A stretch of DNA of 64,000 bases from Alphaproteobacteria bacterium (lineage in GTDB: Bacteria > Pseudomonadota > Alphaproteobacteria > Reyranellales > Reyranellaceae). The position numbers were made by a program, and so were the translations under genes. The first letter of the stretch is position 1, and the number at the start of each line of letters is the position of its first letter. Positions 18,485 to 42,474 of the stretch are shown one piece after another. Under the pieces are notes generated by a model. The model searched no databases, was not told where the DNA came from, and saw only the letters and a program-made list of their open reading frames with translations. The DNA lies in NCBI GenBank assembly GCA_017308235.1, contig JAFKFL010000010.1, positions 186,001 to 250,000 on the forward strand, written 5' to 3'.

Positions 18485-19135
18485 TCAGGACTTCTTGCCG
18501 AGTTCCGCGAGCTGGTTCTGCAGCTCATCGAGCTTGCGCTTCAAATCGTCGATGGCCTCGGCATTGTCGGCAGGCGTCACCGAGGAGGCCGGCTTGGCCT
18601 CGGCGCCATTGGCCTGTGTTGGCGTACCCGCCGCCGGACCCGGACCCTGGCCCTGGCCGGCGCCGAATGGATTGAACATGCGCATCGCCTGCTCGAACAT
18701 CGCCATGTTCTGCTTGCCCATCGATTCGAACTGCTGGAACGGGTTGAAGCCGAAGGCATTCTGCATATAGCGCCGCATCTGCTCCTGGTTGCGGGCGAAC
18801 TGGGTCATCGACATTTCGAGATATTGCGGCACCACGCCTTGCAGGCTGTCGCCATAGAAGGAGATCAGCTGGCGCAGGAAGGGAATGGGCAACAGCGTCT
18901 GGCCGCCCTTGCTCTCCTCCTCGAAGATGATCTGGGTCAGGACCGATCGCGTGATGTCGTCGCCGGTCTTGGCGTCGTAGACCACGAAATCGGTCTTGTC
19001 CTTCACCATTTGTGACAAATGGTCGAGCGTGACATAGGCCGAGGTGGCGGTGTTGTAGAGCCGCCGGTTGGCGTACTTCTTGATGACGACGGGGGCCGGC
19101 TTGGGACCGCTCTCCGGTGCTGCCTGATCGGCCAT
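18485..19135 (-). CDS. phaR: Polyhydroxyalkanoate synthesis repressor PhaR
   Basis: The predicted 216-residue regulator has the N-terminal PHB/PHA accumulation DNA-binding domain (VIKKYANRRLYNTATSAYVT, LDHLSQMVKD, FVVYDAKTGDDITRSVLTQI). Next come two PHB-binding segments with QTLLPIPFLRQLISFYGDSL and FARNQEQMRRYMQNAFGFNP, a Pro/Gly/Ala linker, and a C-terminal coiled coil (IDDLKRKLDELQNQLAELGK). PhaR represses phasin and PHA genes until it binds nascent polymer. The start at 19135 is preferred because GAGGAG lies eight bases upstream; 19174 is a possible longer start. It is divergent from the PHA synthase genes, consistent with direct control of them. Confidence 0.93.
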   Translation of the reverse strand: MADQAAPESGPKPAPVVIKKYANRRLYNTATSAYVTLDHLSQMVKDKTDFVVYDAKTGDDITRSVLTQIIFEEESKGGQTLLPIPFLRQLISFYGDSLQGVVPQYLEMSMTQFARNQEQMRRYMQNAFGFNPFQQFESMGKQNMAMFEQAMRMFNPFGAGQGQGPGPAAGTPTQANGAEAKPASSVTPADNAEAIDDLKRKLDELQNQLAELGKKS

Positions 19136-19207
19136 ACGCTGCGCTCCTCTGCGGTACGCTGAACGCTCGTTCATTCCCAGTCAGGCGACCTTAGCGCCGA
19201 TACCGCA

Positions 19208-19657
19208 GTGCGACAAGTAACCTGGGCAACTGCGAAGAAGCCGGGCGGGACAATGCGCTATAATGGCGGCATGGGCTCCGATGACATGGGTTCGGACAAG
19301 GATGCGCTGTCGGGCGAATTCGACCGCTTGGCCCGGCGTTACCTCGATTTGTGGCAAAGCCAGCTTTCCGGGTTGTCGGCCGATCCGGCGCTGACCGAGC
19401 AGATCGCCCGCCTGTTCGCGGCCGCGAACGCACAGGTTGCGTCCGCCATACAGGCCGCCCAAGCTGGCACCCATGCCACTTCCGCCGCCGCCAGCAGCGC
19501 CAACCCAAGCTCGGCTCCTGGGGGCTCCGCGCCTGGGGCCGCGTCCTCTGCCGCTGCATCTCAGCACGGCGCTGATGACCTGGGCGAGCTGCGAAAGCGC
19601 TTGGCAGCTCTGGAAGCGCGGATCGCCGAACTCGAGGCCAAGCTCCCCCCCGCCTGA
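19208..19657 (+). CDS. Coiled-coil protein preceding PHA synthase (possible PhaE-like or phasin-like)
   Basis: A 149-residue open frame; the real start may be the ATG at 19253 or 19271 (MRYNGG or MGSDDMGSD) rather than 19208. Content: an N-terminal helical part (LSGEFDRLARRYLDLWQSQL; LTEQIARLFAAANAQVASAI), an Ala/Ser/Gly/Pro linker, and a C-terminal leucine coiled coil (LGELRKRLAALEARIAELEA). This layout recalls phasins and the PhaE subunit of class III PHA synthases, though it is much shorter than PhaE. It lies directly before the PhaC-like frame, and the two frames are joined at a run of seven C residues. Function is inferred from context only. Confidence 0.6.
   Translation: MRQVTWATAKKPGGTMRYNGGMGSDDMGSDKDALSGEFDRLARRYLDLWQSQLSGLSADPALTEQIARLFAAANAQVASAIQAAQAGTHATSAAASSANPSSAPGGSAPGAASSAAASQHGADDLGELRKRLAALEARIAELEAKLPPA
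19645..19651 (+). other. Seven-C homopolymer at the junction of two frames
   Basis: The upstream coiled-coil frame ends in CTC CCC CCC GCC TGA. A +1 shift here (or loss of one C) would continue as P-P-E-S-I-A-A-L-I-A-E-A and then straight into the PHA synthase frame, giving a single protein of roughly 520 residues. It may be a sequencing error, a slippery site or a real gene boundary. Confidence 0.5.
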
Positions 19658-19754
19658 GTCGATCGCGGCCCTGATCGCCGAGGCCGAGGCACTGGAGCAG
19701 CGGGCGGGCAACGGCCAATTCGAGAGGTCACTTCATCGTGAGATCGGGCGCCGG

Positions 19755-20765
19755 ATGGAGCGGCTGGCCGACGGCGTGCTGGCCTATCGCCGGCATCCCT
19801 TCCGGCGTCCCCTCGAGGATCCGCCGGTGGCCTGGCAGGAAGGCAATACGCGCCTGCTCGATTTCGGTGCGACGCCGGGCGCCGTTCGCGAAAAAGGCGC
19901 GCGCGCTGTCTTGGTCGTGCCCTCGCTGATCAACCGCTGGGAAGTCCTCGATCTCACTGCGGAGAAGAGCCTGCTGCGCGCCATGGCGGCAGAGGGATTG
20001 CGGCCGTACCTGGTCGACTGGGGCACGCCGGACGCCGACGAACGCCGCTTCGATCTGACCGCCTACGTCGCGCGTCTCCACCGCGCGCTCTCTTTTGTCG
20101 CCAAGCGCGCGCGCCGGAAGCCCGCGGTGATGGGCTACTGCATGGGCGGCACACTCGCCGTGGCACTGGCGGCGGCACGCCCGCGCGGTATCGCGGGTCT
20201 CGCACTGTTGGCAACGCCGTGGGACTTCCATGCCGACAAGACCGGCCACGCCTTCCTGCTGTCGATGGGCCCCATGCTGGCCGAGCTCGCGGACAAGGCC
20301 GGCGAGCTGCCGGTCGATATCCTGCAGACGCTCTTCTGGTCGCTCGATCCCTGGCTCGCGGTGAAAAAGTTCGGCCGCTTCCTGGGCCTCGACCAGGAAA
20401 GCGAGCAGGCGCGCGAATTCGTGCTGCTCGAGGATTGGCTGAACGAGGGCGCACCGCTCGCGGGACCTGTGGCGCGCGAATGCCTGGTCGGCTGGTATGG
20501 CGACAACCTCCCCGGCACCGACAAGTGGATCGTGGGCGGGCGCCGCATCGTGCCGAGCAAGATAAAGACTCCGTCGTTGGTGATGATCCCCTCGGGCGAT
20601 CGCATCGTGCCGCCGCTCTCCGCTGCCGCGCTCGCCGATCCGGAACGCGGGTTCCGGAATGTGATTCGTCGCGATTTGCCGCTCGGCCATATCGGCATGG
20701 TTGTGAGCGGACGAGCAAAAGAGCTTTGCTGGATGCCACTGATCGAGTGGTTGAAATCAATATGA
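19755..20765 (+). CDS. phaC: Class III-like PHA synthase (PhaC-type alpha/beta hydrolase)
   Basis: From the ATG at 19755 the protein has 336 residues. The lipase-like box GYCMGG places the nucleophile Cys near residue 129; Asp lies in MIPSGDRIVPPLSA and His in LPLGHIGMVVSGRA, completing the C-D-H triad of PHA synthases. PYLVDWGTPDADERRFDLTAY is the class III-type N-terminal landmark (seen as LVDWGTPDADERRF). It polymerises 3-hydroxyacyl-CoA on granules. The start is uncertain: coding-like sequence (IAALIAEAEALEQ) extends upstream in frame to about 19655, and an ATG at 19575 would overlap the previous gene. The stop overlaps the LytTR start (ATGA). Confidence 0.85.
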   Translation: MERLADGVLAYRRHPFRRPLEDPPVAWQEGNTRLLDFGATPGAVREKGARAVLVVPSLINRWEVLDLTAEKSLLRAMAAEGLRPYLVDWGTPDADERRFDLTAYVARLHRALSFVAKRARRKPAVMGYCMGGTLAVALAAARPRGIAGLALLATPWDFHADKTGHAFLLSMGPMLAELADKAGELPVDILQTLFWSLDPWLAVKKFGRFLGLDQESEQAREFVLLEDWLNEGAPLAGPVARECLVGWYGDNLPGTDKWIVGGRRIVPSKIKTPSLVMIPSGDRIVPPLSAAALADPERGFRNVIRRDLPLGHIGMVVSGRAKELCWMPLIEWLKSI

Positions 20766-21613
20766 CATTGCAACCGAAGGCCTCGTTCGATTGGCGAGTC
20801 CCGCTCATCTGGGCGGTGATGCTCGCGATCTCGGTCTTCGCCCATGCCTATGTCGAGATGGCCGACAACCAGGTCACCCTGGCGAAGGCTGTCGCGCTGG
20901 AAACGACGAGCCACATCATGGTCGCGGCGATGTTGCCCGCCATCTATTGGCTTCATCGCCACCGGCCGATTTCGGGCAGTCCCGTCAATCTCGCGATCCA
21001 TGTCGCGGCGCTGGTGCCCTTCAGCTTCATCCGCACCACCGGGATGGCAGGCCTCAGGCTTTTGTGGTTCGTGGGGATCCTGGGGGAGTCCTATTCCTTT
21101 CCCCTCACCCTCGACCGGTTGCTCTATGAGCTCAGCAAGGACATCGTGAACTACGCCTTGCTAAGCGGAGCCGTGCTGGGGATTCGCTACCTGCTCGATC
21201 GTGCCGACGCGGCGAAGCAACCGGTCCCTACTGCCGTCGAGCCGCCTTCCCCGCCGGCGGCAGGCGAGCCGGCGCGGCCCGAACGGTTCACGGTGCGGCG
21301 GCGCGGCGGCAACGAGGTCGTGGTGGAGGTGGCCGACATCGACTGGATCGAGGCGGCGGGCAACTACGCCATCCTCCATGTCGGCGGCGAGACCTACGAA
21401 ATCCGTTCCTCGCTCACCAAGCTTGAAGGCGAGCTCGACCCGAAACGGTTCGTGCGCGTGCACAAATCCCATCTCGTGAATATCGGTCGGGTCGCTGAGG
21501 TGACGCCCTGGGTCAGCGGAGACTGGCGCATCCGTCTCCAGGATGGCGCCGAGGTGAACCTCAGCCGCCGCTATCGCCAGCGGTTCGAGGCCTTGGCGCC
21601 TGTCCGAAGTTGA
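20762..21613 (+). CDS. Membrane-bound LytTR-type transcriptional regulator
   Basis: A 283-residue protein with four predicted transmembrane helices (about residues 13-30, 45-63, 76-95 and 132-150), a Pro-rich linker, and a C-terminal LytTR DNA-binding domain. The latter is seen as FTVRRRGGNEVVVEVADIDW, IEAAGNYAILHVGGETYEIR, FVRVHKSHLVNIGRVAEV and LSRRYRQRF. There is no receiver domain, so it is not a classical two-component regulator; the membrane part probably senses a signal or holds the DNA-binding domain at the membrane. It overlaps the PHA synthase by four bases. Three 21-base-period repeats directly downstream (21634-21690) are its likely operator, implying control of the following oxidase gene and perhaps itself. 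Confidence 0.88.
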   Translation: MTLQPKASFDWRVPLIWAVMLAISVFAHAYVEMADNQVTLAKAVALETTSHIMVAAMLPAIYWLHRHRPISGSPVNLAIHVAALVPFSFIRTTGMAGLRLLWFVGILGESYSFPLTLDRLLYELSKDIVNYALLSGAVLGIRYLLDRADAAKQPVPTAVEPPSPPAAGEPARPERFTVRRRGGNEVVVEVADIDWIEAAGNYAILHVGGETYEIRSSLTKLEGELDPKRFVRVHKSHLVNIGRVAEVTPWVSGDWRIRLQDGAEVNLSRRYRQRFEALAPVRS

Positions 21614-21633
21614 TCGCGGAGCCGAGGCCGCCC

Positions 21634-21690
21634 GCCGGTCGTCCTGAGGGGCGCGCCGGTCGTCCCAAGGCGGCTGCCGGTCGTCACAAT
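21634..21690 (+). promoter_or_regulatory. Three direct repeats with 21-base period, candidate LytTR operator
   Basis: GCCGGTCGTC occurs at 21634, 21655 and 21676, exactly 21 bases apart (two helical turns), with diverged sequence between copies. LytTR domains are known to bind direct repeats of about 9 bases separated by about 12. The repeats start 20 bases after the LytTR gene and end 64 bases before the first flavin oxidase start. Confidence 0.6.
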
Positions 21691-21754
21691 TCGACGCCGC
21701 ATCAAGGGTTTGAGGGCTACGAAAGAGACCATCGACCTGGTGGTGGAGAACCCG

Positions 21755-23545
21755 ATGATGCGACGCGATCTCTTCAAAATGGCTGGCGCTTTCTCCGTAA
21801 TGGCGGCGGATGCCGGCGCCCAGGGGAGCGGCGGCGCGTTCCGGCGGGTAAGGCCCGGTGACGCCGGCTGGCCCTCGCAGGCACAGTGGCAGGCGCTCAA
21901 CGACCGCGTCGGCGGCCAGCTTACGGTCGTCCGGTCGCCGCTCGACGCCTGCCGTAACGGCGCCGATCCCGCCGCCTGCGACGCCGTCTTCAAGGGCTTC
22001 AAGAACCCCTACTACATCCGGGACAATGTCGCGCTGACGCAAACCACCGGCTGGGCCGACGCCTGGGCCTCGCAGCCCAGTGCCTATGCCGTGGCTGCCC
22101 GCAACGCCGCCGACGTCGCCGCGGCCGTCAACTTCGCGCGCGAGCACAAGCTGCGCCTGGTCGTGCGCGGCGGCGGCCACAGCTACCTCGGCGCCTCGAA
22201 TGCCCCCGATTCGCTGCTGGTCTGGACGCGGGCCATGGACTCGATCGTGACGCACGATGCGTTCGTGCCCCAAGGCTGCAGCACAGCGCCGCAAGCTGCC
22301 GTTTCCGTGGGCGCGGGCAATGTCTGGTTGAAAGCCTATGCCGCCGTGACCAAGGCCGGGCGCTATGTGCAGGGCGGCGGATGTTGCACGGTCGGCGTCG
22401 CGGGCCTGATCCAAGGTGGTGGCTTCGGCAGCTTCTCCAAGCAATTCGGCCTGGCCGGCGCCAGCCTTCTCGAAGCGGAGGTCGTCACCGCCGATGGCCA
22501 GGTCCGGATCGCCAATGCCTGCACGCATCCTGATCTTTTCTGGGCATTGAAAGGCGGTGGTGGTGGCAACTTCGGCGTTGTCACCCGGGTCACCCTCAAG
22601 ACGCATGAGCTGCCGAATTTCCTGGGCGGCGCTTTCGGCGCGATCCGGGCTCACTCCGACGATGCTTATCGGCGCCTGATCGCCCGGTTCGTCGCCTTCT
22701 ATCGCGAGCGGCTCTTCAATCCGCACTGGGGCGAGACCGTACGCTTCAGCCGTAACAACGTGCTGGAGATCAGCATGGTGTTCCAAGGCCTCGACCAGGC
22801 AACAGCCGCCGCGACCTGGAAGCCGTTCCTCGACTGGGTCGCCGCATCGCCGTCCGATTACACCATCGTGGCGCCCGTCATGGCGCTTGCCGCGCCTGCG
22901 CATTTCTTCTGGGATGCGGCCTTCCTCAAGCAGAGCCTGCCGCAGGTCATCCGCTCCGACGATCGCTCCGGCGCGCCGGAGGACGCCGTCTACTGGGCCG
23001 CCAACGTCGGCGAAGCGGGCTGGTATGTGCACGACTACGAATCGGTCTGGCTGCCGCAGTCGCTGCTGGCGGACGACGCACAGGCGCGCCTGGTCGATGC
23101 GCTGTTCAAGGCTTCGCGTACCTGGTCGCTGACGTTGCATTTCAACAAGGGCCTGGCCGGCGCGCCCAGGGAGGCTCTCGATGCGGCGCGCGACACGCCG
23201 ATGAATCCCGACGTGGTTGATGCCTTCGCACTGGTCATCACTGCGGCTGGTGGACCGCCGGCCGTTGCCGGCATCCCGGGCCACGAACCCGATCTCGATC
23301 GGGCGCGCAAGGAAGCGGCCAACGTCGCGGCGACGCTGGCCGAGATACGCAAGGTGGCGCCTGAGGCCGGCACCTATGTCGCCGAATCGAGCTACCACCA
23401 GAAGGACTGGCAGCGCGCCTACTGGGGCGGCAACTACGCCCGTCTGCAGGGCGTGAAGAAGACGTATGACCCGGACGGATTGTTCTTCGCCCATCATTGC
23501 GCGGGCAGCGAAGAATGGAGCGCCGACGGCTTCACTCGTCTCTAG
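21755..23545 (+). CDS. Tat-exported BBE-type FAD-linked oxidase (copy 1)
   Basis: About 596 residues. The N-terminus MMRRDLFKMAGAFSVMAADA has the twin-arginine motif RRDLFK, so it is likely Tat-exported. Next comes a PCMH-type FAD domain: RLVVRGGGHSYLGASNAPDS carries the histidine for 8a-histidyl-FAD, and GGGCCTVGVAGLIQGGGFG has a cysteine where berberine-bridge enzymes form a second, 6-S-cysteinyl bond. The BBE C-terminal domain ends YWGGNYARLQGVKKTYDPDG. It probably oxidises an alcohol, sugar or amine with O2. The start at 21755 (GGTGGTGGAG upstream) is preferred over the open-frame start at 21710. It has a paralogue immediately downstream. Confidence 0.9.
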   Translation: MMRRDLFKMAGAFSVMAADAGAQGSGGAFRRVRPGDAGWPSQAQWQALNDRVGGQLTVVRSPLDACRNGADPAACDAVFKGFKNPYYIRDNVALTQTTGWADAWASQPSAYAVAARNAADVAAAVNFAREHKLRLVVRGGGHSYLGASNAPDSLLVWTRAMDSIVTHDAFVPQGCSTAPQAAVSVGAGNVWLKAYAAVTKAGRYVQGGGCCTVGVAGLIQGGGFGSFSKQFGLAGASLLEAEVVTADGQVRIANACTHPDLFWALKGGGGGNFGVVTRVTLKTHELPNFLGGAFGAIRAHSDDAYRRLIARFVAFYRERLFNPHWGETVRFSRNNVLEISMVFQGLDQATAAATWKPFLDWVAASPSDYTIVAPVMALAAPAHFFWDAAFLKQSLPQVIRSDDRSGAPEDAVYWAANVGEAGWYVHDYESVWLPQSLLADDAQARLVDALFKASRTWSLTLHFNKGLAGAPREALDAARDTPMNPDVVDAFALVITAAGGPPAVAGIPGHEPDLDRARKEAANVAATLAEIRKVAPEAGTYVAESSYHQKDWQRAYWGGNYARLQGVKKTYDPDGLFFAHHCAGSEEWSADGFTRL

Positions 23546-23575
23546 TGCAGATTCCAAAATGTTGAAACCATCCCA

Positions 23576-23686
23576 GCCTCACCCTGAGGGCCGTGCGGAA
23601 CACGGCGTCTCGAAGGGTGGGCAACAAGCACGGTGCTCGTTTCCGCCCTTCGAGACGCGGCCCGTGGCCGCTCCTCAGGGTGAAGT
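23576..23686. repeat. Long palindromic repeat (REP-like), copy between the oxidase genes
   Basis: About 110 bases with nested inverted repeats: outer arms cctcaccctgag and cctcagggtga, inner arms cgtctcgaagggtgg and cccttcgagacg. The same structure occurs in inverted orientation at 41434-41541, and the outer arms alone at 3486-3521. The repeat is non-coding; spurious frames across it encode HPEGRAEHGVSKGG-like strings often mis-annotated as small proteins. Confidence 0.85.
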
Positions 23687-23727
23687 GATTCTGTGTCCGC
23701 CTTGAGTGGACGTCCGATGGTGACCAC

Positions 23728-25527
23728 ATGCGAAGACGCTCCCTGCTCGCAGGCCTGACAGCCCTCGCCGTCGCTGGTCTCCCCAACGAGACTCCAGCGG
23801 CACCGAAATTCTCCCGCGTCCGACCGGGCGAACCCGGATGGCCATCGGTCACGACGTGGGAGGATTTGCGCAAGAGCGTCGACGATCGGCTCGTCAAAGT
23901 GCAGCCAGCCCTCGATGTGTGCCGCGTCGATCCCGATGCCGCGGCATGTCGCGAGCTCTTCAGGGAATTGAAGAATCCCTACTTCATCGGCGACGACCCA
24001 AGCCTGACCCAGACGCTGGGCTGGGTCGATGCCTGGACGTCGCAGCCCAGCATCTATGCGGTGGCCGCGCGTCGAACCGAGGATGTCGTCGCTGCGGTGA
24101 ATTTCGCCCGCACACACCGGTTGCGGTTGGTCGTGCGCGGCGGCGGCCACAGCTACCTCGGCACCTCCAACGCGCCCGACTCGCTCATGGTCTGGACGCG
24201 CGCGATGAACGAGGTCGTCTTGCACGACGCTTTCGTCGCACGAGGCTGTGCCGGCCAGCAGCGGGCGCAACCGGCCGTATCGGTCGGTGCGGGCGCGCTC
24301 TGGATGCAGACCTATAACGCCGTCACCACGGACGGCGGGCGCTACGTGCAAGGCGGCGGCTGCGGCACGGTCGGTGTGGCCGGTCTCGTGCAGGGTGGCG
24401 GCTTTGGCAGCTATACGAAGAACTACGGTATTGCCGCGGCGAGCCTCCTCGAGGCGGAGATCGTCACAGCCGATGGCGTCGTGCGCCTGGCCAATGCCTG
24501 CACCCATCCTGACTTGTTCTGGGCCCTGAAGGGCGGTGGCGGCGGCACGTTCGGCGTCGTGACGCGCGTCACCCTGCGCACCCATGAGCTGCCGTCGTTC
24601 TTCGGCGGCATCGCTGTCACCATCAAGGCGTCATCCGATTCAGCTTTTCGAGAGCTGATCGGCCGCTTCATCGCCTTCTACGCAGAGAGCCTCGCCAATC
24701 GACATTGGGGCGAGATCGCAAACGTCCGGCCGGGCAATCGACTCGACATCGAGATGTCGTTCCAGGGATTGACCCTCGAAGAGGCCGACGCCGTATGGCG
24801 ACCCTTTCTCGACGGCGTGAAGGCAGCTCCGCAGGATTTCACGTTCGAGAAGGCGCCGCGCATGCGAGTCGCGCCGGCGCGGCATCGTTGGGATCCAGCC
24901 TTCCTAAAAAGCTTCGCGCCCGCTGCCGTCCGAACCGACGACCGGGTCGGTGCCTCGGCGGACAATATCTTCTGGGCCGCCAACGTCAGCGAGGCCGGGC
25001 ACGTTATCGAAGACTTCGAATCGCGTTGGCTGCCGGCGTCGTTGCTGCAGTCCGGCCGCCGCAGCGAGCTGGTCGAGGCGCTGGTTGCGGCGGCGCGCCA
25101 TTCGACGATCGAGATCCATTTCCAGAAGGGGCTCGCCGGCGGCGCCGAGGAGGCAATCGCCGCCGCACGTGACACGGCGATGAATCCGGCAGTGATCGAA
25201 GCCTTTGCGCTTGCGATCGTGGCGAGCGAGGCACCGCCCGCCTATCCCGGCCTTCGTGGCCATCAGCCGGATCTTGCGCAGGGGCGGTGCAATGCCGCGA
25301 AGGTTCGCAAGGCCGCAACCGAGCTTCGCAAAGTGGCGCCAGCACCCGGCGCCTACGTCGCTGAAAGCAGCTATTTCGAGACCGACTGGCAGGCGGCCTA
25401 CTGGGGCGCCCACTATCCGCGACTGCGGGCCGTGAAGGACAAGTACGATCCCGAAGGGCTGTTCTTCGTCCATCATGGCGTCGGCAGCGAGGACTGGAGT
25501 CCCGACGGCTTCACCCGCCTCACCTAG
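23728..25527 (+). CDS. Tat-exported BBE-type FAD-linked oxidase (copy 2)
   Basis: A 599-residue paralogue of the preceding oxidase, alignable along its length. The leader MRRRSLLAGLTALAVAGLP has an RRRSLL twin-arginine-like motif. Flavin sites are retained: LRLVVRGGGHSYLGTSNAPD with the FAD-linking histidine, and GGGCGTVGVAGLVQGGGFG with the cysteine predicted for the second covalent bond. The BBE end is YWGAHYPRLRAVKDKYDPEG. It is separated from copy 1 by a 180-base gap filled by a palindromic repeat, which suggests tandem duplication and perhaps separate expression. The last four bases overlap the end of a convergent small gene. Substrate unknown; probably periplasmic. Confidence 0.9.
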   Translation: MRRRSLLAGLTALAVAGLPNETPAAPKFSRVRPGEPGWPSVTTWEDLRKSVDDRLVKVQPALDVCRVDPDAAACRELFRELKNPYFIGDDPSLTQTLGWVDAWTSQPSIYAVAARRTEDVVAAVNFARTHRLRLVVRGGGHSYLGTSNAPDSLMVWTRAMNEVVLHDAFVARGCAGQQRAQPAVSVGAGALWMQTYNAVTTDGGRYVQGGGCGTVGVAGLVQGGGFGSYTKNYGIAAASLLEAEIVTADGVVRLANACTHPDLFWALKGGGGGTFGVVTRVTLRTHELPSFFGGIAVTIKASSDSAFRELIGRFIAFYAESLANRHWGEIANVRPGNRLDIEMSFQGLTLEEADAVWRPFLDGVKAAPQDFTFEKAPRMRVAPARHRWDPAFLKSFAPAAVRTDDRVGASADNIFWAANVSEAGHVIEDFESRWLPASLLQSGRRSELVEALVAAARHSTIEIHFQKGLAGGAEEAIAAARDTAMNPAVIEAFALAIVASEAPPAYPGLRGHQPDLAQGRCNAAKVRKAATELRKVAPAPGAYVAESSYFETDWQAAYWGAHYPRLRAVKDKYDPEGLFFVHHGVGSEDWSPDGFTRLT

Positions 25528-25739
25528 ACGAGTGTTCCGATCAATCGCAATAATTCTTGCTTCTCCGGACCTTGGCCGCTCCGGCTGAGAAAGGCTCCGA
25601 TGTCGATATCGGAAATCTTGCCGCCTGAAGCGAGATTGGGTTCATGTCTGATGAATACGCACGTAACCACCGGATCGTGGGCGAGAGACCAACGATCCCC
25701 ATTGGCACTCTGGTAGAGTTCTCGAGTCTGAATGCTCAT
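25524..25739 (-). CDS. Small conserved hypothetical protein
   Basis: A 71-residue protein, MSIQTRELYQSANGDRWSLA and continuing with DPVVTCVFIRHEPNLASGG, ending GPEKQELLRLIGTLV. I recognise the pattern as a small conserved family in rhizobia-like alphaproteobacteria, with no known function. The start at 25739 follows GAGGGAG; the longer frame to 25808 overlaps the neighbouring gene. The ATG overlaps the stop of the preceding minus-strand small gene (ATGA), so the two are translationally coupled. Its 3' end overlaps the convergent oxidase gene by four bases. Confidence 0.75.
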   Translation of the reverse strand: MSIQTRELYQSANGDRWSLAHDPVVTCVFIRHEPNLASGGKISDIDIGAFLSRSGQGPEKQELLRLIGTLV

Positions 25740-25945
25740 CGGATTACTCCCTCTATCGTTCGAGCTCCCGCCAGGGGCTCCCAGCCGTCGAGCAACAGGC
25801 CGTCCCAATTGACGATGCCCTGTTCCTGATGCCCAAATTTGGCGTTACGGCGATAAGCGTCCTCCCATGCTGGTTCCCATGCGAATGTCGTATCGCTCGA
25901 CCGATCATGGACCCAGCAGGGCTCCGAAGGGTCGAATTCGGACAT
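25736..25945 (-). CDS. Small hypothetical protein coupled to the next gene
   Basis: About 69 residues, MSEFDPSEPCWVHDRSSDTT, rich in tryptophan (FAWEPAWEDAYRR; NWDGLLLDGWEP). No family is recognised with certainty. Evidence that it is real: the stop overlaps the start of the small conserved gene downstream by four bases, and the composition is protein-like with several Trp and acidic residues, unlike neighbouring shadow frames. The start is uncertain, because 25963 gives six more residues and neither choice has a strong ribosome site. Function unknown; possibly a partner of the downstream protein. Confidence 0.5.
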   Translation of the reverse strand: MSEFDPSEPCWVHDRSSDTTFAWEPAWEDAYRRNAKFGHQEQGIVNWDGLLLDGWEPLAGARTIEGVIR

Positions 25946-26232
25946 CGGGCGGCGGCTACCCATGTCGTCTCAACGCATTGGCCGTTGCGAGGCTGCCATT
26001 GTTCTACTCTGCGCTGTCCGACGGTGCGGTCCATAACACGCTGACCATCGCGGTGCCCGCGATGGGGAAGTGCCCGCATCGGTGACCCCCTCCGGCCTTT
26101 CCGGCCACCTCCCCAGGTTCGCCAGAAGACAGACGAATCAATCAGCACCGATATAGCGGTTAGCCAACGCCTTGCAGGCAGCGATGAGCGGCCTATAACA
26201 TGGGCTGCAGGGCGGCCTGTAAGGAGGGACTC
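25946..26232. other. Intergenic region before phaA
   Basis: About 290 bases between the divergent small-gene pair and phaA. I see no convincing gene. A 7-base hairpin (catcgcg, 26046-26052, with cgcgatg, 26058-26064) and a CCGG-rich palindromic patch near 26095 are present. Promoters for both directions must lie here, but no strong -35/-10 pair stands out. Confidence 0.5.
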
Positions 26233-27414
26233 ATGGCTACAGATATCGTCATCGCGAGCGCGGCGCGCACGCCCATCGGCTCTTTCAATGGTGCCTTCGG
26301 GTCCGTCCCCGCCCACGACCTCGGCAAGGCCGCGATCAAGGGTGCGCTGGAGCGCGCCAAGGTGAAGCCGGAAGAGGTCGACGAGGTCATCATGGGCCAG
26401 ATCCTGAGCGCGGGTCAGGGCCAGAACCCGGCGCGCCAGGCCGCGGTCAACTCAGGCATCCCGGTCGAGAAGACAGCGCTCGGCATCAATCAGCTGTGCG
26501 GCTCGGGCCTGCGGGCCGTCGCCTTCGGCTGGCAGGCGATCCGCAATGGCGACGCCTCGATCATGGTGGTCGGTGGCCAGGAGAGCATGAGCCAGGCTCC
26601 GCACGTCGCCCATTTGCGCGACGGCGTGAAGATGGGCGAGATGAAGATGATCGATTCCATGATCAAGGACGGTCTGTGGGACGCCTTCAACGGCTATCAC
26701 ATGGGCAACACGGCGGAGAACGTGGCGCAGAAGTACCAGATCACCCGCGCCGAACAGGATGCCTTCGCGGCCTCGTCGCAGAACAAGGCCGAGGCGGCAC
26801 AGAAGAGCGGCCGCTTCAAGGACGAGATCATTCCGGTGTCGGTCAAGACGCGCAGGGGCGAGGTCGTGGTCGATACCGACGAGTTCCCCCGCCACGGCAC
26901 GACGGCGGAGGCGCTGGGCAAGCTGCGCCCCGCTTTCACCAAGGAAGGCGGCTCGGTCACCGCGGGCAACGCCTCGGGCATCAATGACGGCGCGGCGGCG
27001 CTCGTCCTGATGACCGCTGACGAGGCCAAGAAGCGTGGCGTGAAGCCCTTGGCCAAGATCGTGTCGTGGGCGACCACGGGCGTCGATCCGTCGGTCATGG
27101 GCATCGGTCCCGTCACCGCCTCGCAGGCCGCGCTCAAGAAGGCCGGCTGGACGGTGAAGGATCTCGACCTCGTCGAGGCCAATGAAGCGTTCGCCGCGCA
27201 GGCCGTCGCGGTCGGCAAGGAACTCGGCCTCGACCCGGCGAAGCTCAACGTCAACGGTGGCGCGATCGCGCTCGGCCATCCGATCGGCGCCTCGGGCGCG
27301 CGCGTGCTGACGACGCTCCTCTACGAGATGCAGAAGCGCGATGCCAAGAAGGGCCTCGCCACGCTCTGCATCGGTGGCGGCATGGGCATCGCCATGTGCG
27401 TCCAGCGCGACTGA
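26233..27414 (+). CDS. phaA: Acetyl-CoA C-acetyltransferase (beta-ketothiolase)
   Basis: A 393-residue biosynthetic thiolase joining two acetyl-CoA into acetoacetyl-CoA, the first step of poly-3-hydroxybutyrate synthesis. All catalytic blocks are present: [19 protein letters not shown] with the nucleophilic Cys near 89, [19 protein letters not shown] with His near 349, and [16 protein letters not shown] with the second Cys near 379. The start follows AAGGAGGGAC (26221-26230). Tetrameric cytosolic enzyme. phaB lies 1.45 kb downstream with an MFS gene between, an unusual break of the classic phaAB pair. Confidence 0.95.
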
Positions 27415-41547: not shown

Positions 41548-42474
41548 CTAATTGCTGGCGCCGGCGGAGTCGTCGAGGACCTTGAAGCCTTCCTCTAGCT
41601 GGGGCGAAAGATCGACCCCGAGCTTTTCTCCCGTGGGAAGCCGCGCCAGGAACCATTTCTGATAGAGCGGCACCAGGTCGTGATTGGTGGCAAGCTTGCG
41701 GAAGGTGCGCTCGACCAGAGCGGCAACCTCGGGCTCTCCCTTGCGGAACATGATGCCGTACGGATCGTAGGACAGATAGTCGCCCACGACCTTCATCTTG
41801 TCCTGCGCCTTGTGCCGCGCGATCAGGCCATAGAGCAGGATGTCGTCGGTGGCGAAGGCATCGGCCTTGCCCTCGGCCAGCATCTGATACGATTGTTCAT
41901 GGTCGGCTGCAGTCACGACGTTGAGTCCGAGCGAGAGCTTCTTGTCCGCGGCGTGGATCGCCTGCTCGTTGGTCGTGCCTTTGGTCACGACGATGGTCTT
42001 GCCGCGCAGATCGGCGATGCCCTTGGCGCTCGATCCCTTGGGCACCATGAGCTTGGTGCCGGCCACGAACATCAGGGGCGAAAAGGCGACTTGCTTGCCT
42101 CGCTCGGCGTTGGCCGTGGTCGAGCCGCATTCGAGGTCGATCTTCTTGTCGAGCACGGCGGCGATGCGGTCGTCCGAGGTGACTTTGACATACTCGATCT
42201 TGAGCTCGGGTTCATCGACCGCGGCGCCGATCTCCTCGACGATGGCCTCGCAGAGCTCGAGGCTGTAGCCGATCGGACGACCGGCCTGGTCGAGAAACGA
42301 GAACGGCGGCGAGGCCTCGCGATATCCGAGCCGCACCGTGTGTGTGCTCTTGATGTTAGCCAGGGTCGGGCTCAGCCCGACCTCCTGGGCTTCGACCGTG
42401 AGAGCCGGTGCCGCCGCGATGAGCAGGGCAGCGCCTGCAATACACGTAGACAACGGGCGGGCCAGCGGGCGCAT
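41548..42474 (-). CDS. Amino acid ABC transporter substrate-binding protein (family 3, GltI-like)
   Basis: A 308-residue precursor with a Sec signal (STCIAGAALLIAAAPALTVEA). The family 3 ligand-binding pattern is clear: VRLGYREASPPFSFLDQAGR, PIGYSLELCEAIVEEI, DRIAAVLDKKIDLECGSTTA (with NAERGKQVAFS following), and LRGKTIVVTKGTTNEQAIH. This matches the glutamate/aspartate-binding GltI subgroup. No ABC permease or ATPase is adjacent; instead it lies 9 bases downstream of a dicarboxylate/amino-acid symporter gene, a curious pairing of a binding protein with a secondary transporter. Confidence 0.9.
   Translation of the reverse strand: MRPLARPLSTCIAGAALLIAAAPALTVEAQEVGLSPTLANIKSTHTVRLGYREASPPFSFLDQAGRPIGYSLELCEAIVEEIGAAVDEPELKIEYVKVTSDDRIAAVLDKKIDLECGSTTANAERGKQVAFSPLMFVAGTKLMVPKGSSAKGIADLRGKTIVVTKGTTNEQAIHAADKKLSLGLNVVTAADHEQSYQMLAEGKADAFATDDILLYGLIARHKAQDKMKVVGDYLSYDPYGIMFRKGEPEVAALVERTFRKLATNHDLVPLYQKWFLARLPTGEKLGVDLSPQLEEGFKVLDDSAGASN

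Follow-up and report, generated by a model that had tools for sequence, protein, structure and literature searches.

Do three copies of one 10-base word, set head to tail between the gene of a membrane LytTR regulator and that of a flavin oxidase, constitute the operator of that regulator? In the window, as the whole 64 kb stretch of DNA analysed is called here, GCCGGTCGTC stands on the plus strand in three exact copies starting at 21634, 21655 and 21676, confirming the three direct repeats at exact intervals of 21 and 21 bases that the first-pass annotation had read at this place. Box 1 covers 21634-21643 (mostly ACCGNWCGTC in relatives), box 2, followed by CCA, covers 21655-21664, and box 3, together with a conserved ACAA, covers 21676-21689. 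A fourth exact copy lies on the minus strand at 42276. No other 10-mer in the 64 kb forms a triple with two equal intervals of between 15 and 30 bases, and none arose when the window was simulated 20 times under a first-order Markov model. When the whole genome (6.3 Mb in 42 contigs) was scanned for the two-box pattern with its 21-base spacing at up to two mismatches, both overlapping pairs at 21634-21685 were recovered with none, and two further matches elsewhere carried two mismatches each. Boxes of 9-10 bp, spacers of 11-12 bp and a conserved period of 21 bp match the geometry of a LytTR-type operator; LytTR proteins are reported to bind direct repeats that lie about two turns of the helix from one another (PMC11347149, PMC4064291, PMC6193735). 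Comparative evidence makes it very probable that the three repeats serve the adjacent four-helix membrane LytTR regulator as its operator, an idea strongly supported by the conservation of the element, by its co-occurrence with the regulator and by its unlinked copies.

The regulator and its gene cluster

The regulator gene (20762-21610, plus strand) encodes 283 residues, among which the LytTR domain matches PF04397 at E=1.6e-24, with 86.4 bits against a curated cut-off of 22.6. An AF2 model built from 46 aligned sequences (mean pLDDT 91.9) predicts four N-terminal helices, at residues 12-36, 40-67, 74-106 and 117-152, and a LytTR fold at 175-278. Foldseek returned 3d6w (TMt 0.88-0.89), AgrA (0.76-0.83) and ComE as the best matches of the model, the LytTR part alone being matched and the membrane part finding nothing at E<=0.001. 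No receiver domain was found in Pfam, and the NCBIfam matches were confined to the C-terminal domain, so that the earlier description of a regulator with four membrane helices and no receiver holds. An MHYT domain is absent as well, LytTR being the sole Pfam match and the model having four helices. Residues of the helical part that are invariant in all 46 sequences include S50, H51, Y62, H80, G94, R99, E123, K126 and D127, which would be consistent with a sensor function.

By 4 nt, the regulator's ATG overlaps the stop codon of a gene for a polyhydroxyalkanoate (PHA) synthase-like protein, of class III PhaC-like type with a GYCMGG box (19437-20765, plus strand; TIGR01836 at E=3.1e-43 and 148 bits, below the cut-off of 365). 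On the minus strand lies phaR, the gene of the PHA synthesis repressor (18485-19174; TIGR01848, 151 bits against a cut-off of 109), and the conserved cluster is closed on the plus strand by the gene of a phaA-like thiolase, an acetyl-CoA acetyltransferase (26200-27414; Pfam and NCBIfam). Between the boxes and the thiolase gene stand two BBE-type FAD oxidase genes, both on the plus strand. Oxidase 1 (21755-23545; PF01565 and PF08031), the presumed target, has a twin-arginine-like N-terminus; oxidase 2 (23728-25527; Pfam) is 60% identical to it, has no element of its own and is presumed to be co-transcribed with it. The longest mechanical reading frame of oxidase 1 begins at TTG 21710, an unlikely start, since it falls inside the conserved promoter block delimited in the next section and since alignments with most homologues begin at about residue 12-16 of the frame, that is, at about ATG 21755 (MMRRDLFKM...), which is probably the true start.

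The order phaR (on the opposite strand), small coiled-coil gene, phaC-like gene, LytTR gene, target gene and phaA-like thiolase gene recurs, and the regulator therefore lies inside a conserved polyhydroxyalkanoate cluster (18485-27414). Among 49 named loci, which end at 3 kb or at contig ends and so bound the counts of neighbouring genes, phaR was matched in 47, the phaC-like gene in 48 and the thiolase in 37.

Ahead of the phaC-like gene in the window, an Ala-rich protein of 149 residues with a coiled-coil-like end (19208-19657) has a weak Pfam match and no NCBIfam match; by its position it may be a partner of PhaE-like or phasin-like type. In several relatives the matches to AT3 acyltransferase and thiolase lie about 10-50 bases apart, a gap short enough to suggest that phaA may share the same promoter. 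Autoregulation of the phaC-LytTR operon was considered and rejected, no consensus box pair having been found upstream in 48 named loci (1.4-3 kb scanned; at L084 there was nothing upstream to scan).

Conservation of the element and its company with the regulator

The element was defined on the 49 named loci before any genomes were counted, and genome copies were counted at up to two mismatches in a family sample of 75 genomes, comprising Reyranella and its kin. The cultured species R. soli and R. aquatilis are among the loci. Across the named loci the arrangement is kept in the stretch of 200 bases that follows the LytTR stop codon, with spacers that mostly differ, and its consensus reads ACCGNWCGTCCC-N9-GCCGGTCGTCCCA-N8-GCCGGTCGTCACAA-N12-TCAANG-N2-TTG-N5-TA(G). 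It is present in the window and in 44 of the 49 named loci, where the box spacing is 21 only, though the scan admitted 20-23; an alignment of this gap in related genomes had been proposed as a check, and the boxes and the 21-base spacing next to LytTR genes withstood it. In L042 and L074 the element lies some 250-700 bases farther downstream than usual. Five loci have no element at the regulator: the sequence of L066 stops 65 bases past the regulator gene, and the repeats are absent behind a regulator gene that has the thiolase gene as its immediate downstream neighbour (L049, L083) or an AT3 gene less than 60 bases further on (L065, L085). The genomes of these last four loci each carry an element before a BBE gene on another contig.

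Altogether, 77 elements were found in 68 of the 75 family genomes, one to three per carrying genome. Their mean information amounts to 1.25 bits per column in box 1, 0.28 in the spacer after it, 1.93 in box 2, 0.46 in the second spacer and 1.85 in box 3; boxes 2 and 3 appear the better conserved because the elements were selected on them, whereas the selection made no use of box 1 or of the promoter block. This block (21702-21719, plus strand; TCAANG-N2-TTG-N5-TA), recognised from the per-column information and presumed to be the -10 side of the core promoter, begins 12 nt 3' of the ACAA of box 3 and ends in TAC in the window and mostly in TAG in relatives. Over the 77 elements it carries 1.44 bits per column in TCAA, 1.45 in TTG and 1.63 in TA, with 0.52 in the flank before and 0.39 in that after it.

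A short head-to-tail repeat right past a stop codon might equally be taken for a dispersed repeat, a minisatellite, or a terminator or other RNA feature of the LytTR transcript in which the regulator has no part. We regard this as most improbable, given that the genome holds a single element and each family carrier one to three, that none was found in the 381 non-family genomes of the class-wide sample, and that all 76 elements with a readable target point at one of two gene families, their boxes being kept while the spacers vary. A dispersed repeat or minisatellite was ruled out by the single element in the genome together with the target specificity elsewhere, and a LytTR terminator or leader by the elements that are unlinked from a LytTR gene. 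In the class-wide sample of 387 genomes, six of which were family, the element was present in five, all of them family members with the regulator.

The regulator was found in 67 of the 75 family genomes, and the element accompanies it in 66 of these 67 as against two of the eight without it (Fisher P=9.5e-7, kinship ignored). For the 51 genomes with a completeness of 90% or more and a contamination of 5% or less, the corresponding figures are 48 of 48 and none of three (P=4.8e-5, kinship again ignored). The regulator without the element was seen in G032, a genome 60% complete in which the BBE match reaches the contig end, and the element with no regulator found in G029 and G046, incomplete drafts at 73% and 75%. 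Neither regulator nor element was found in G037 and G039, nor BBE (at E<=1e-30) or AT3 (at E<=1e-60). In G051, a complete genome lacking both regulator and element, a BBE gene stands about 40 bases behind the phaC-like gene (L191, G051:C1:2254500-2260500) and a remote AT3 gene has no boxes; it looks as if the switch had been lost from the locus by a natural deletion.

Part of this co-occurrence is linkage, because most elements stand directly behind a LytTR gene, and a different DNA-binding protein could be imagined to use the boxes, with the LytTR gene merely as its neighbour. The same genome does encode a second LytTR protein, L152 (G000:C27, about 376740-377000, outside the window), which also has several hydrophobic N-terminal stretches; in the 4 kb around it the best box-like pair is weak (15/18). 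That another protein is the user of the boxes seems to us improbable, in view of the unlinked BBE elements in 11 genomes, the absence of elements from the three near-complete genomes without the regulator, the one-base match to an AlgR site and the similar boxes beside distant LytTR-AT3 pairs, the latter two being taken up below.

Two presumed target families and the probable mode of action

With the nearest gene behind an element taken as its target, 46 of the 76 readable elements precede an AT3 acyltransferase gene (PF01757) and 30 a BBE flavin oxidase gene; the 77th has a contig end at a distance of about 160 bases, and its target is unreadable. The earlier picture of a switch controlling exported flavin oxidases is strongly supported in its core, an operator that would serve the oxidase promoter, and has to be widened by AT3 as a second presumed target. 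An AT3 match stands directly behind each of the elements of L045 and L078, and eight genomes have elements before both AT3 and BBE. For the AT3 protein from L039, the one member scanned, the nearest NCBIfam model is MdoC (69 bits against a cut-off of 338). The window's own genome has seven genes of the AT3 family, of which only one aligns, at 29% identity; a close AT3 homologue is absent.

An element on a contig other than the regulator's was found in 11 genomes (G015, G024, G025, G030, G034, G041, G043, G045, G049, G056 and G065), a set that includes several fragmented drafts and one genome, G030, with 8% contamination. Of the 13 elements concerned, 11 precede BBE and two precede AT3 (G015:C266 and G030:C124); the latter two lie less than 110 bases from a contig start and so may have been split from the regulator by assembly. 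In G034, G043 and G056, both contigs measure at least 88 kb and the sites are at least 18 kb from contig ends. There is strong comparative evidence for a control link of the regulator to the oxidase or acyltransferase gene. That one and the same element is followed here by an acyltransferase gene, there by an oxidase gene, clearly exemplifies an exchange of targets.

Outside the family, nine class genomes had a LytTR match at E<=1e-20, and eight of these genomes (L172-L179) have the regulator gene and an AT3 gene in divergent orientation, the AT3 product being 27-34% identical to the Reyranella AT3; no AT3 match was found within 7-7.5 kb in the ninth genome (L180) or at a second, partial LytTR match that one of the eight contains (L181). 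Two added pairs, L205 (divergent) and L182 (an order-level relative, in tandem), bring the total to ten LytTR-AT3 pairs, the second sample comprising 386 class genomes. Among the neighbour genes searched for, AT3 alone was found beside the regulator in these distant relatives. Box pairs like CCGKTCGTC, 20-21 bp apart and facing AT3, occur in nine of the ten, with shuffle P<=0.013 each (0.013, 0.007, 0.003, 0.003 and five at 0/300), the values being per stretch and uncorrected for the number of stretches; at L178 the boxes fall short of significance (P=0.33). Ten control stretches with no LytTR gene beside them (the seven AT3-family paralogues of the window's genome, the AT3 of G051 and of G386, and the BBE of G051) gave none at P<0.05 towards the gene, the lowest value being 0.087, and in one of them (L206, of G386) a weak pair lies on the opposite strand (P=0.03). 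At L205 a second AT3 gene stands behind the first, with a box-pair P of 0.87. The longest LytTR frame of L175-L177 and their kin, the start of which is uncertain, may reach with its 5' end into the boxes, and in L172, L176, L177 and L179 further boxes stand at 12 or 30-31 bp from the principal pair, possibly a second register.

We therefore hold, with considerable confidence, to the whole reading of the element as the operator of a membrane LytTR regulator whose LytTR domain would sit on the boxes and would most likely activate the gene behind. As modelled, the four helices would hold the regulator in the inner membrane, where the membrane part may sense an envelope or membrane signal, and the cytoplasmic LytTR domain would bind the three head-to-tail boxes CCGGTCGTC, lying two turns apart on one face of the helix. 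The bound regulator would then activate the gene behind through contact with RNA polymerase. The target would be the exported flavin oxidase pair here, with the oxidase presumably exported by Tat; other species would have an OpgC-like acyltransferase in its stead, or both enzymes with an element each.

As to the direction of control, about 41 bp lead from the start of box 3 down to the conserved TA(G), a probable part of the -10, since a start codon follows some 30-40 bases later in many loci; the ACAA that closes box 3 stops about 28 nt short of this presumed -10. No -35 is conserved upstream of TA(G) in the element alignment, and the block TCAANGNNTTGN5TAG is not known to fit any sigma consensus. 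A box 3 just upstream and no conserved -35 make activation the most likely action, one that we consider reasonably probable; having neither a -35 nor a known sigma signature to go by, we infer it. As a variant of the same operator reading, the regulator might be a repressor relieved by its signal, in the manner of CoxC at PcoxB. CoxC of Afipia carboxidovorans, a membrane MHYT-LytTR protein, is reported to bind three direct repeats 18-21 bp apart and to repress from them (PMC11347149), and targets that are accessory enzymes could need silencing. This variant appears rather doubtful to us, given the distance of box 3 from the presumed -10, with no conserved -35 to be covered, and the statement in the same paper that LytTR-type regulators mostly bind upstream of the -35 and activate (PMC11347149).

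Read more widely, and with activation preferred, an alphaproteobacterial four-helix LytTR switch may drive an OpgC-like AT3 by way of AlgR-type repeats, while in Reyranella the operator in the PHA cluster would also serve an unrelated exported flavin oxidase, so that one envelope signal would command interchangeable surface-modifying enzymes; towards this broader picture we lean only slightly. If true, the membrane LytTR class would gain a defined operator and regulon. A short, nearly single-copy operator with two named target families makes for a directly testable system of one regulator, one element and one or two genes.

Relation to known LytTR systems

The locus had been presented as a one-component membrane switch not previously described, a claim that has to be withdrawn, since the kind is known from the three-repeat operator of CoxC (PMC11347149), from the four-helix HigX (PMC13384398) and from Caulobacter LytTR proteins, which carry membrane segments according to a survey of transmembrane regulators (PMC10269533). 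Membrane LytTR regulators are reported to be widespread in alphaproteobacteria (PMC13384398). What is new is the operator itself, the two-target regulon of AT3 and BBE, and the place in a polyhydroxyalkanoate cluster; in the one open library consulted, no published description of these three was found, nor any literature tying LytTR to acyltransferase 3 or berberine bridge.

CoxC resembles the present regulator in being an alphaproteobacterial single component with a membrane part, a C-terminal LytTR domain and three repeats about two turns apart, the features here being seen in silico. Its seven-helix MHYT sensor of CO, its TTNNNGCN boxes, its action as a repressor and its cox targets are its own (PMC11347149), unlike the four helices without an MHYT match, the CCGGTCGTC boxes and the presumed BBE and AT3 targets seen here. 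HigX of Caulobacter crescentus, a four-helix LytTR factor with 596 ChIP peaks, is by its description alike in joining four helices to a LytTR domain, here with no receiver, and in its suspected envelope targets (PMC13384398). Peculiar to HigX are a ChIP motif that forms an 8-bp inverted repeat (ATGTTASC/GSTACCAT) and, as neighbours, ctrA and a COG4188 hydrolase (PMC13384398), in contrast to the direct repeats of different sequence, the one to three sites per genome and the phaC-like neighbour found here. By analogy, the inverted-repeat motif would count against the reading of a direct-repeat operator.

The LytTR regulatory systems HdrRM and BrsRM have direct repeats separated by 11-13 bp ahead of the promoter; LytTR control through direct repeats in that position, here presumed, and the involvement of the membrane are what they share with the present case (PMC6193735). 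They have a separate membrane inhibitor and an autoregulated operon (PMC6193735), whereas here there is one protein with four helices, its neighbours are the phaC-like gene, the oxidases and the thiolase, and no element was found before its own operon in the 48 loci scanned. Closest in DNA sequence is the AlgR site of Pseudomonas aeruginosa, CCGTTCGTC, which differs by one base from CCGGTCGTC and belongs to a protein that likewise has a LytTR domain (PMC4064291); box 1 is exactly CCGTTCGTC in L043, L048 and L080. AlgR itself is a two-component response regulator, and its sites need not be direct repeats with 12 bp between them (PMC4064291). The boxes held in common with AlgR suggest an old DNA code in this branch of LytTR proteins.
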